From NCBI GenBank assembly GCA_029247135.1, contig JAQWLS010000006.1:1-40037 (forward strand): a stretch of 40,037 nucleotides of DNA. Direction: 5' to 3'. Shown piece after piece: positions 3,355 to 36,566 of this stretch (positions are counted from its first letter, which is position 1; each line of letters begins with the position of its first letter). Both the position numbers and the translations under genes were made by a program. The notes beneath the pieces were generated by a model, which had not been told where the DNA came from, searched no databases, and was given only the letters and a program-made list of their open reading frames with translations. The stretch comes from Dehalococcoidia bacterium. Its GTDB lineage: Bacteria; Chloroflexota; Dehalococcoidia; UBA2979.

Positions 3355-3428
3355 TGGCTCGGGACCAGGGAGTCGAACCCCGACACCATGAACCAGAATC
3401 ATGTGTACTACCATTATACGAGTCCCGA
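3355..3428 (-). tRNA. tRNA-Gln (anticodon CUG)
   Basis: On the minus strand the sequence folds as a tRNA. The 7-bp acceptor stem is TCGGGAC (3428-3422) with GTCCCGA (3365-3359). The anticodon stem is CATGA/TCATG around the loop TTCTGGT, giving anticodon CTG (Gln, codon CAG). The T arm has GGTTCGACTCC. The discriminator base is G (3358) and CCA is encoded (3357-3355). It lies 41 bases downstream of gltX on the same strand and could be made as the tail of that transcript. Confidence 0.93.
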
Positions 3429-8797: not shown

Positions 8798-8872
8798 GGC
8801 CCCATCGTCTAACGGTTAGGACGCGAGGTTTTCAACCTCGAAATCGGAGTTCGATTCTCCGTGGGGTCACCA
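8798..8872 (+). tRNA. tRNA-Glu (anticodon UUC)
   Basis: The acceptor stem GGCCCCA (8798-8804) pairs with TGGGGTC (8862-8868), followed by discriminator A and an encoded CCA (8870-8872). The anticodon stem is CGAGG/CCTCG with loop TTTTCAA, so the anticodon is TTC (Glu). The T arm contains GTTCGATTC. A weak hairpin (8906-8931, CTCTGTCC/GGACAGGG) follows downstream without a T-run. Confidence 0.95.
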
Positions 8873-19746: not shown

Positions 19747-19821
19747 GGCCCCATCGTCTAGGGGTTAGGACGCGAGCCTCTCACGCTCGAAACCCGGGTT
19801 CGATTCCCGGTGGGGTCACCA
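19747..19821 (+). tRNA. tRNA-Glu (anticodon CUC)
   Basis: The acceptor stem GGCCCCA (19747-19753) pairs with TGGGGTC (19811-19817), followed by A and encoded CCA. The anticodon stem is CGAGC/GCTCG with loop CTCTCAC, so the anticodon is CTC (Glu). Its first 26 bases match the tRNA-Glu(UUC) at 8798 except for two bases in the D loop. Confidence 0.95.
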
Positions 19822-33117: not shown

Positions 33118-33202
33118 AATTGCCCCCTTGATGATTGTCTATATGTCTAAGAGTCTACAATAGAGTGGTGGATCTGGTGAGTGGAATAGAGTGAGGATTA
33201 GC

Positions 33203-33430
33203 ATGCGAGTATCAGAAGATTTACACACTCAATACATGACAGCATATTCGGCTTGGCTTGAACAAATCACGGCGGTTCATAGTTTTTTCTTTGAGGAGAG
33301 TGCGCTGCGCCCGGATAAGGTGAAGGGTTTACTAAATCGAGAAGCTAATGCAAAGGATAAATATGACCTAGCTCGACTCAAGTTACTCGGGCTCGATTCC
33401 GATAGCTCACAGTCGTCGACAGATTATTAA
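33203..33430 (+). CDS. Small hypothetical protein upstream of the CcdA-like gene
   Basis: 75 residues from the ATG at 33203, chosen because GAGGAT lies 6 bases upstream; a GTG at 33191 is the longer alternative. The sequence is helical with several aromatic residues (QYMTAYSAWLEQITAVHSFFFEE) and a basic middle (DKVKGLLNREANAKDKYDLARLK). There is no membrane segment or Cys. Its stop codon (33428-33430) directly abuts the ATG of the next gene at 33431, so the two are translationally linked. I recognise no family. Confidence 0.7.
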   Translation: MRVSEDLHTQYMTAYSAWLEQITAVHSFFFEESALRPDKVKGLLNREANAKDKYDLARLKLLGLDSDSSQSSTDY

Positions 33431-34201
33431 ATGATTGCTAAGAGTGCAGGATCTGATTCGGGCTACGTCAGAGCAATACTTCTCGGGGGAGCGATCGCTC
33501 TAGGTTGGTCGCCGTGCATAGGGCCCATTTTGGGCTTTGTTTTAGTTCTAGCAGCGACAAGCGAACAGGTGGCCCGCGGAGCGTTATTATTATTGTTTTT
33601 TGGCTTTGGTTTAGGCCTATGGTTTCTAATTATTGCTGTCGGATTTCAGCAAATATGGCCTAGGATTCATCGAACTGAGAAATTTTTTAAGCGGTACACC
33701 TTGGTTAATGGAATTCTCCTAACTTCATTCGGGGGACTCTTGTTGGTAGGTGGAATTGATATTTGGTCACGTATCAGCTCGAGAGTCCTACGATTTGGAT
33801 CGATCATTCCGGCGTTTGAGACTTTCGAACAAAATTTAGTTCAATATGTTGATGGTCCAGCAGGACTGGTGACCGCTTTTCTCGCGGGGGTAATAGCGTT
33901 CGCTTCTCCGTGTGTCTTACCACTAGTGCCCGTGTTTTTTGTGCATATTGGTGGTGACCTTGCGTTGACACCTAATAAGCGCCACGATCAAAAAAGATTT
34001 ATTCTCCAAACTTTACTATTCATTCTTGCGTTCTCAGTCACATTTGCTGCGTTAGGTGCATCAGTTGGACTCGCTGGTGGAGCAATTCTTTCAAGGATTG
34101 ACTGGGCACTTCGGCCGATTGGTGCAGTAGTCATAGTTCTTGGCTTGAACATGCTTGGGTTAATCAACTTACGCTACCTGAATCGGACGTTTCAATTGTG
34201 A
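33431..34201 (+). CDS. CcdA/DsbD-type thiol-disulfide membrane protein with halves in swapped order
   Basis: 256 residues with six or more membrane segments. CcdA proteins carry reducing power across the membrane using one Cys in each of two related halves. The usual order is an N-terminal half with FLSPCVLPLVP and a C-terminal half with GWTPCIGPxLG. Here GWSPCIGPILGF (Cys29) comes first with its typical follow-up VARGALLLLFFGFGLGLWF, and FASPCVLPLVPVFF (Cys161) comes second with its typical AFSVTFAALGASVG and GLNMLGLINLRYL. A linker of about 35 residues (111-145) joins them. So the family is clear and the order is reversed. No thioredoxin-fold partner or cytochrome c gene lies nearby. Stop overlaps the ATG of the downstream region. 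Confidence 0.85.
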   Translation: MIAKSAGSDSGYVRAILLGGAIALGWSPCIGPILGFVLVLAATSEQVARGALLLLFFGFGLGLWFLIIAVGFQQIWPRIHRTEKFFKRYTLVNGILLTSFGGLLLVGGIDIWSRISSRVLRFGSIIPAFETFEQNLVQYVDGPAGLVTAFLAGVIAFASPCVLPLVPVFFVHIGGDLALTPNKRHDQKRFILQTLLFILAFSVTFAALGASVGLAGGAILSRIDWALRPIGAVVIVLGLNMLGLINLRYLNRTFQL

Positions 34202-34210
34202 TGACTAACC

Positions 34211-34696
34211 ATGTTGCCATCGAAGAGGAATCAGACGAGAATTGTATCTATTATGAGTGAAGAACTTGATGGTTTGAATTTGAGCGAGTTGATAGAAGCA
34301 ATTGCACAGGAAGAGGTGCTAATTGTCCGTTTTCAAAATTTTGAAGAACGGCTTCTATTAGACATGCGGCTTGGTGAAGATGAGCAGCCACTCGTGCGAA
34401 TGGTGGGTCCTGTTTCGTCGGCCGAAGAACGTTACGCAGAACTTCGGCAGATTCGACCTGAAGTAGCACTGCCAGAGAGAATCATGGTTGTCCCGTGGCC
34501 TCGCTCGTTCAGTGAGATGCAACGACTGGGTCTTTGGGACGAGATCAGTTCACGAATCCTGAAGGTCGCTGGTGATTCTGCAACCGCGCTGACACGAGAG
34601 CTACGTACTGATATCGAACGCCTTGAAATGTTGGAATTAGCCGCAATTATTCGGGGAGATATTGGTTATGAAACCTTATGGGAACGCGATGATTAA
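34211..34696 (+). CDS. Hypothetical acidic protein
   Basis: Up to 161 residues; ATG codons at 34211 and 34253 (MSEELDG, 147 residues) are both possible and neither has a clear ribosome binding site. The sequence is soluble and acidic, with a central strand-rich part (EVLIVRFQNFEERLLLDMRLG, PLVRMVGPVSSAEERYAELRQIRPE, RIMVVPWPRSFSEM) and a helical end. The 14 extra residues from the upper start are basic and may not be translated. It follows the CcdA-like gene by 9 bases, so it is probably in the same transcript. I do not recognise the family. Confidence 0.65.
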   Translation: MLPSKRNQTRIVSIMSEELDGLNLSELIEAIAQEEVLIVRFQNFEERLLLDMRLGEDEQPLVRMVGPVSSAEERYAELRQIRPEVALPERIMVVPWPRSFSEMQRLGLWDEISSRILKVAGDSATALTRELRTDIERLEMLELAAIIRGDIGYETLWERDD

Positions 34697-34752: not shown

Positions 34753-35799
34753 ATGAACAATATAATTGATTTGCGCTCTGACACAGTTACAAAACCATCG
34801 CAGAATATGCGACTGGCAATCCAGGCTGCCGAGGTTGGTGATGATCATTCTGGTGAAGACCCATCTATTAACCGACTGGAGTCGGTGGCCGCGGATTTTA
34901 CGGGCAAGGAAGCGGCACTCTACGTTCCATCAGGTACGATGTCGAATCTGGTCGCACTCCTCACACATTGCCAACGAGGGGACGAGGTCATCACGGGTAG
35001 CGAATCTCATATAAATAACCACGAGGGTATGGGTGCCTTCACCTTGGGTGGATTTTCTGTCCGAACGGTGACCAATGACTTCCGGGGTCGAATTAATCCA
35101 AGTGATATAACTGACGCATGCAGGCAAGAATGGCCTAGAACGAAAGTTATATGCCTGGAAAACACACATAATCGTTGCGGTGGTAGTGCTATCCCGAAGA
35201 GCGATATTAGTGAGATTGCAGCAATTGCACAAGAACGCGGAATCCAATTGCATATTGACGGAGCAAGAATTGCAAATGCAGCCGTGGCACTAGAAACAGA
35301 TGTTGCATCGCTAGTGGCAGATGCCGACTCCGTCTCATTTTGTTTTTCGAAAGGACTGGGAGCTCCGGTAGGCTCGGTTTTGTGTGGAACCAGAGATTTC
35401 ATAACGGAGGCTCGCCATAATCGACGTTTGGTTGGTGGAGCAATGCGTCAAGGCGGAGTGATTGCTGAAGGGGCTTATTACGCTCTCACGCATAATTTTG
35501 ATCGATTGGCTGAAGATCATGAAAATGCTCAACTACTCCGACACCGGATCGAAGGTTTACCGGGCATTAATTTGGACCCGGCTGGCTGCGACACCAACTT
35601 AGTGTTTTTCGATCTTGATTTAGAATTTGATGGTGATGCTTTTCGATCGAAACTCAGTGAACTTGGTGTTCGCTGTTCTGGGACAAGCAAACAAAGAATT
35701 CGTATGGCTTGTCACTTGGACATCTCCAAGGGGGATGTCGAGCGCGCTGCGAAATTAATTGCGCAGACTTTAGGTGAGATGGAGGCAGAATCATCATAG
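34753..35799 (+). CDS. ltaE: Low-specificity L-threonine aldolase
   Basis: 348 residues, a PLP fold-type I enzyme. IDLRSDTVTKPS is the standard N-terminus, GDEVITGSESHI holds the stacking His86, LENTHNRCGG and HIDGARIANA (Asp169) contact the cofactor, and Lys200 in SFCFSKGLGAPVGS is the PLP lysine. RRLVGGAMRQGG is the usual follow-on. It cleaves threonine or allo-threonine to glycine and acetaldehyde, and acts on other beta-hydroxy amino acids. The stop overlaps the probable start of the next gene. Confidence 0.94.
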   Translation: MNNIIDLRSDTVTKPSQNMRLAIQAAEVGDDHSGEDPSINRLESVAADFTGKEAALYVPSGTMSNLVALLTHCQRGDEVITGSESHINNHEGMGAFTLGGFSVRTVTNDFRGRINPSDITDACRQEWPRTKVICLENTHNRCGGSAIPKSDISEIAAIAQERGIQLHIDGARIANAAVALETDVASLVADADSVSFCFSKGLGAPVGSVLCGTRDFITEARHNRRLVGGAMRQGGVIAEGAYYALTHNFDRLAEDHENAQLLRHRIEGLPGINLDPAGCDTNLVFFDLDLEFDGDAFRSKLSELGVRCSGTSKQRIRMACHLDISKGDVERAAKLIAQTLGEMEAESS

Positions 35800-36566
35800 T
35801 ACTTAAACGCTCGGTGTTTCTGGGGACTGCGTCGGTAATTTTTTTGATTTTTGCAACTCTCGGCTGTTCAGATTCGAATTCAAATCAAATTTCGACTGAT
35901 TCACTCACGCGGGCGTACCAACTAGCTGTTCCAGAGGAACTACGCTATGAGTTAACTAACGACCTAGGTGAACGTGTAGGACTTGGGGTATTTGAGTCGA
36001 AAATTAGTTCAACTAACCCGTCGATTATTGTGCTCCAAGAACGCTATAGCCGCCAGGATAATCCAGATGCAGGCGACATAATTACAACTCGAGTCTCGGG
36101 GGCTAATTTTTCAGCATTAGGTGGAGACCGAAAGGTAGCGAGTGTGAAACAACTTGAGGTTAAGGGAGTTTCGTATGCTTGGAAGATTTCAGAAAGCGAT
36201 GACGAAAGGCCTATGCTGCAGAAAACAGATAATTTGGATGACTCGAGCTCAATTAGAACAAAGAAGTTGCCCAACATGCCGATATATGCCAATTCCAGCT
36301 CATTTTGGTTATGGCGACAACTGCCCCTAGAAGTTGGTTATAGTGCAAGCTATATCGCGGTCGATCCGTTTGAAGAAAAATGGCAGTTGGTCAACATTAC
36401 TGTTCCCCAATCAGAAATTCTTAAGACACCCTTTGGCGAGATTCCAGTGTGGAGAGTTCTTGTGCGATCTGGACGAGCAACTCGATCTGCCTGGATTGAG
36501 CAGTCCAACCCTCATCGGGTGCTTAAATGGGACAATGGACTAACTGTTATGACTCTGGTTGACTGA
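35793..36566 (+). CDS. Lipoprotein of unknown function
   Basis: A lipobox TLGC is clear. The first standard start is GTG at 35814, which gives a signal peptide without any positive charge and has no ribosome binding site. The same frame is open further upstream and adds IVLKRS, the expected basic start, with GGAGG at 35781-35785. That places initiation at ATC 35793 or ATA 35796, overlapping the ltaE stop. From 35793 the lipidated Cys would be Cys25 of 257 residues. The mature part is rich in beta strands (KVASVKQLEVKGVSYAW, LEVGYSASYIAV, GEIPVWRVLVRSGRATRSAWIE) with no recognised domain. Its 3' end overlaps that of the opposite-strand gene by 20 bases. Confidence 0.7.
   Translation: MIVLKRSVFLGTASVIFLIFATLGCSDSNSNQISTDSLTRAYQLAVPEELRYELTNDLGERVGLGVFESKISSTNPSIIVLQERYSRQDNPDAGDIITTRVSGANFSALGGDRKVASVKQLEVKGVSYAWKISESDDERPMLQKTDNLDDSSSIRTKKLPNMPIYANSSSFWLWRQLPLEVGYSASYIAVDPFEEKWQLVNITVPQSEILKTPFGEIPVWRVLVRSGRATRSAWIEQSNPHRVLKWDNGLTVMTLVD

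Follow-up and report, generated by a model that had tools for sequence, protein, structure and literature searches.

Gene organization at the locus

The window, which is the whole stretch of 40,037 nucleotides analysed in this work, carries a CcdA-type gene encoding a protein whose two halves stand in the reverse of the usual order (Table 1). Since ORF79 ends at position 33430 and ORF161 starts at 34211, no further half could be hidden beside this gene. In 22 of the 22 family loci compared, ORF79 precedes the permuted gene and ORF161 follows it. ORF161 is usually followed by the threonine-aldolase-like gene and then by the DUF3108-like gene; ORF206 and ABC genes lie on the opposite strand. A redox role for ORF79 and ORF161 was sought by Pfam search and no match was obtained; a functional link of these two proteins to the transporter is possible. 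The window also contains three tRNA genes, Gln (ctg, 3355-3428), Glu (ttc, 8798-8872) and Glu (ctc, 19747-19821), and besides them the Rfam search of the window gave no family above threshold.

Table 1. Position of the permuted gene, its segments and the neighbouring genes in the window
Feature	Position	Strand	Evidence or remark
ORF79, small cysteine-free protein, no Pfam match	33191..33430	+	stop codon directly precedes the ATG of the permuted gene
Circularly permuted CcdA-type gene, type I order (B, then A1, then A23)	33431..34201	+	open frame, 256 aa
Segment B (canonical helices 4-6), residues 10-112, with GWSPCIGPILG	33458..33766	+	DsbD_TM profile; segment HMM
Cys29 codon, active-site cysteine, canonical TM4 helix	33515..33517	+	column invariant in 30 family members
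New linker from natural C-terminus to natural N-terminus, residues 113-140, predicted extracytoplasmic	33767..33850	+	length and charge statistics; tail motif
Segments A1 and A23 (canonical helices 1-3), residues 141-256, with ASPCVLPLVP	33851..34198	+	DsbD_TM profile; segment HMMs
Cys161 codon, active-site cysteine, canonical TM1 helix	33911..33913	+	invariant column
ORF161, cysteine-free protein, no significant Pfam match	34211..34696	+	starts 10 bases after the stop of the permuted gene
Threonine-aldolase-like PLP enzyme (GntG family model)	34753..35799	+	NCBIfam NF041359, 412.8 bits against 230; synteny
DUF3108-like protein	35814..36566	+	PF11306, E = 1.5e-05, 25.4 bits, just below the cut-off of 26; synteny

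Sequence of the permuted protein

The original prediction stated that the halves of a CcdA-type protein are swapped here in one unbroken frame, and it proposed a profile search of both halves. The Pfam profile DsbD_TM (PF02683) matches the two of them, in swapped order: residues 10-80 correspond to profile positions 123-193 and residues 146-249 to positions 5-105, with a score of 69.5 bits against a cut-off of 27.1 and a whole-protein E-value of 3.4e-19. The phmmer search against the PDB gave a single match, CcdA (5vkv_A, E = 1.5e-18), which is also out of order, with query residues 145-244 aligned to chain residues 4-93 (first half) and query residues 7-109 to 105-203 (second half). The swap within one frame is borne out by these two sets of matches.

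Segment profiles were built for the second half (B), helix 1 (A1) and helices 2-3 (A23) and were run on all loci. In the window protein they match residues 11-112 (B, E = 4e-34), 141-178 (A1) and 188-254 (A23), and six hydrophobic helices are predicted from its sequence. The linker, initially put at about 35 residues, measures 28 residues between segment profiles, which is close to that estimate, and ranges from 17 to 29 residues across all proteins of this arrangement. C29 and C161 are the only cysteines of the protein, and each belongs to one of the two Pro-Cys motifs. The presence of one such motif per half had also been claimed, and it extends to the alignment of 30 permuted family proteins, where P28-C29 and P160-C161 are among the 40 invariant columns.

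Regarding these matches, the window protein is, by its sequence, a circularly permuted variant of the CcdA/DsbD_TM family, set apart from ordinary members by the reversed order of its halves. With CcdA from Thermus thermophilus (PDB 5VKV) it shares both halves, the Pro-Cys motifs, six helices and a similar length.

Three other identities were considered and rejected. DsbD is a three-domain reductase; the 256 residues of the window protein correspond only to its membrane core, which is homologous (NF001419, 49.5 bits against a cut-off of 330), with the halves swapped and the soluble redox domains missing. No match to the VKOR/DsbB family appeared in Pfam or NCBIfam up to an E-value of 1, and the NicO/RcnA metal exporter model NF007454 reached 10.8 bits against a family cut-off of 195.

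Conservation of the swapped order

The order of the halves was followed in a search of 60 related genomes, the window's family belonging to the class Dehalococcoidia (Chloroflexota). In family genomes the permuted protein matched colinearly over its full length, and in class relatives outside the family it matched mostly in two pieces, that is, in the normal order. A shared order in related genomes had been named beforehand as a supporting check, and the swapped order was read out in 29 of 29 further family genomes besides that of the window (loci L002-L030), at identities of 35-80%. It is also present in the public contigs Chloroflexi SB0661_bin_43 (L051) and Dehalococcoidia cluster2_bin.142 (L052). 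As the order is shared within the family, with other families of the class and with public records, neither chance nor a local assembly join can account for it; a normal-order gene or an assembly join at this place, the two outcomes that the original prediction had set against its own reading, are excluded by the same order in independent genomes. The window comes from a fragmented MAG that is 72% complete, but an assembly join, a frameshift or a strain-specific rearrangement mimicking a permutation has a negligible probability, given that the order and the operon neighbours are the same in tens of independent family genomes, that the order recurs in other class families and in public contigs, and that synonymous change is in strong excess.

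Concerning this excess, the window gene and its nearest relative (80% identical) differ in 117 synonymous and 52 nonsynonymous codons, with a dN of 0.12 and a dS of 2.17, the latter being near saturation, which makes the ratio approximate. The permuted gene is under purifying selection.

A DsbD_TM match was found in 38 of the 44 family genomes, and the halves of the permuted gene are the sole such matches except in three genomes (G027, G573 and G575). The two extra DsbD_TM genes that were read are distinct normal-order paralogues, one with a redoxin-like start (L223) and the other with a DsbD-like frame (L222). In the first of these (L223:4670-5626, genome G573) a normal-order CcdA follows the redoxin-like stretch, and the same genome also has the permuted gene. 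Absence of the permuted gene from some family MAGs is probably due to their incompleteness. The order of the halves is fixed in the window's family, and the permuted form is usually the only CcdA-type protein there.

Two types of permutation

The segment profiles revealed three arrangements: the ordinary one (A1-A23-B), type I (B-A1-A23), to which the window gene belongs, and type II (A23-B-A1), in which the SPCVLPLVP helix is C-terminal. Beyond the window's family, type I was found in families f50, f66 and f31 of the class, and in f66 the type I gene is also adjoined by ORF79 (L215:7030-7254). Type II was found within the class in families f20 and f5, elsewhere in the phylum in f83, f100, f101, f130, f133 and f139, and also in the genome group reached through L062; its loci include L031, L032, L056, L184-L201, L225-L234 and others. 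The two types have in common the protein family, the joint from helix 3B to helix 1A and two conserved Pro-Cys motifs, and they differ in the position of the cut, which lies after helix 1 in type II and between the halves in type I.

Several loci show particular features. At L053:6816-11918 about 3 kb separate a type II gene from a divergent CcdA-like gene of normal order (373 aa), and the type II protein at L054:9482-10507 has a hydrophobic insertion of about 100 residues between helices 2-3 and the second half. Two genomes of family f83 (G325 and G223; L187 and L188) carry two or three type II copies plus a normal-order CcdA match, so permuted and ordinary CcdA can coexist.

Topology and structure prediction

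In type I proteins, the loops expected inside contain 1.36-1.54 K/R per 10 residues and those expected outside 0.15-0.41; over the three arrangements these values are 1.2-2.1 and 0.15-0.64, respectively. The terminal regions of ordinary CcdA contain 0.74 and 0.51 K/R per 10 residues, those of type I 1.78 (N-terminus) and 1.33 (C-terminus), and those of type II 1.40 and 0.84, the last value being weak. In the permuted forms, the stretch that joins the old ends is acidic. From these charges, the termini look to be inside in the permuted forms and outside in ordinary CcdA; according to the same patterns, both cuts appear to be cytoplasmic, with every helix keeping its orientation, as a prediction from sequence. 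The pattern is also consistent with the opposite orientation of the two three-helix inverted repeats. A cut in a cytoplasmic loop together with the joining of the natural ends outside would allow the halves to keep their orientation, with only the chain ends changing sides, from outside to inside. The permuted protein would then differ from ordinary CcdA in the order of the halves, in its predicted inside termini and in an acidic and probably extracytoplasmic joint.

AlphaFold2 gave a pLDDT of 82.7 and a pTM of 0.75 for the window protein, from an alignment with three full-length rows only, and a pLDDT of 69.6 and a pTM of 0.71 for a type II protein. With Foldseek, an aligner bound to chain order, CcdA (5VKV) ranked first for both models, at E = 0.78, TM 0.45 and rmsd 7.8 for the window protein and at E = 1.7e-3 with a poor superposition for type II. 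With VIA-align, which is also bound to chain order, 5VKV was second for the window model (Z 7.9, rmsd 5.5 Å), which is within the background of unrelated transporters (Z of about 7). Sequential aligners penalise permuted matches, so that a poor superposition is to be expected, and these comparisons do not by themselves establish a CcdA fold. The six helices would pack as in ordinary CcdA, and the pseudo-symmetry of CcdA makes such a re-threading structurally plausible.

Mode of origin

In type I relatives, the linker starts like the C-terminal tail of ordinary Chloroflexota CcdAs (RLNxYF..G; L045, L061) and then runs into the natural N-terminus. This opening with an ordinary CcdA tail indicates an end-to-end fusion. 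The likely origin would be a tandem duplication with in-frame fusion, after which both ends were trimmed. A tandem duplication followed by the loss of the outer halves had been proposed in the original prediction: the joint fits it, with the CcdA tail leading into the N-terminus, and the 12-helix stage that it implies was not found. Indeed, among all the loci fetched there were no 12-helix tandem, seven-helix or split-gene intermediates.

The type I order could also derive from the fission of the gene into half-genes that were then fused in the opposite order, a proposal on the origin alone, which agrees with a CcdA function. Such a route would suit the type I cut, which falls exactly between the halves, and the missing 12-helix tandem among the loci examined is in its favour. 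Nevertheless, it is unlikely, since the linker of type I relatives opens with the tail that naturally ends normal CcdAs, no split genes turned up, and type II is cut within a half, after helix 1 and before helix 2, where a swap of half-genes would not place the cut. Duplication, fusion and trimming is therefore the preferred route.

Predicted function and partners

CcdA is a minimal six-helix membrane thiol-disulfide (electron) transporter. With a probability of roughly 85%, the window gene encodes a natural circular permutant of it with this predicted function. Among the helices of type I proteins, canonical TM4 comes first and canonical TM1 fourth; among those of type II proteins, TM1 comes last. 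The helices bearing C29 (TM4) and C161 (TM1) would form the moving redox pair within a scaffold made of the other four. CcdA has been described as the smallest elevator-type protein, in which the active cysteines sit on TM1 and TM4 and these two helices may move inside an O-shaped scaffold, and the same review asks for further work to confirm this model (PMC7329351).

Electrons would pass from cytoplasmic thioredoxin to the permuted CcdA and from there to an extracytoplasmic thioredoxin-like acceptor, most likely CcmG. The source of reductant for CcmG is DsbD or, in some organisms, CcdA (PMC3601427). The window genome has a CcmG-CcmE-CcmF-CcmH-CcmA-CcmB-CcmC operon for System I cytochrome c maturation, which adjoins a cytochrome c oxidase subunit with a c-type domain; the permuted gene does not adjoin the ccm genes. 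PF01578 proteins are present in 40 of the 44 family genomes and nearly always number two, as expected for CcmF plus CcmC. In genus g8, with small genomes (G010 and G033; L135 and L144), the permuted gene is present and the PF01578 match is absent, so CcmG is not the sole acceptor and others must exist. The System II protein ResB was rejected as a partner, as it is absent from the family except in G575 and its weak match in the window genome falls inside CcmF.

A permuted member of the superfamily could instead serve another substrate, as a metal or small-molecule exporter of the RcnA or ArsG kind, and not act as an electron carrier. Weak NCBIfam matches below the cut-offs, to ArsG (25.9 bits against 200) and to RcnA (with the score given above), as well as neighbours ORF79 and ORF161 without an assigned function, would be in line with this. 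Such a role is quite improbable: the Pro-Cys motifs are both invariant in the 30 sequences, CcdA is the sole solved sequence relative, and genomes with Ccm genes usually have no other CcdA-type protein than the permuted one. Electron transfer by a permuted CcdA is retained as the likely reading.

Number of permutation events

Trees were built on segments rearranged into the standard order. MAFFT with many half-length normal CcdA rows placed A halves on the B half, and a smaller set was used instead. In the tree of 114 rows the arrangements require at least 10 changes; on its well-supported branches alone, four changes are forced for the normal order and four for type II, and the forced number is three when long-branched rows are removed. 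Topology tests were applied to groups defined by arrangement and chosen after the first tree was seen: a single type II clade was rejected (AU p = 0.0011; 0.0012 without long rows), a grouping of all permuted proteins in one clade was rejected too (p = 0.00027), and a single type I clade was not rejected (p = 0.314).

In the L062 group, 11 type II and 14 normal-order proteins form one clade of 25 (support 100/99), apart from the Chloroflexota proteins. This clade includes L069 from Candidatus Eremiobacterota, which is 81% identical to one member, and three further type II proteins of the group fall outside it. The second phylum with type II is probably Eremiobacterota (Vulcanimicrobiota in NCBI), an assignment that comes from L069 alone.

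One ancient permutation could also lie behind all the permuted forms, with the normal order regained or horizontally acquired elsewhere. The single type I clade, which the AU test did not reject, and the 3B-to-1A joint of both types would agree with it. This scenario is very improbable considering the rejection of both the all-permuted and the type II clade, the latter with and without long branches, and the union of type II and normal-order proteins of the L062 group in a clade separate from Chloroflexota. The data favour, with good confidence, that CcdA has been permuted repeatedly, at two cut points in predicted cytoplasmic loops and probably at least four times, in Chloroflexota and also in another phylum, probably Eremiobacterota, and that the ordinary form has been replaced in the window's family.

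Relation to known permutations and biological meaning

The natural circular permutation relating VKOR and DsbB was reported as the first among helical membrane proteins (PMC4555120). Like the permuted CcdA, it concerns a helical membrane thiol oxidoreductase. However, VKOR and DsbB are very distantly related four-helix families of oxidative function, set apart by one ancient permutation (PMC4555120), whereas the permutation of CcdA took place within one family at clear identity, with two cut points, several times, and in a reductive carrier. No description of a permuted CcdA or DsbD was found in the literature searched, a coverage that leaves out most subscription journals. Natural permutation of helical membrane proteins is rarely documented, and annotation by profiles masks the permuted genes as ordinary or fragmentary DsbD_TM matches.

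The permuted CcdA would have the same parts and most likely do the same work, in a new and recurrent order. Close normal-order and permuted relatives in one family allow folding, topology and elevator motion to be compared directly, and the forms with the moving TM1 last (type II) or TM4 first (type I) are useful tests of the elevator mechanism. If this reading is true, CcdA would be a natural experiment in which the order of the chain and the side of its ends are dispensable for an elevator-type membrane carrier.
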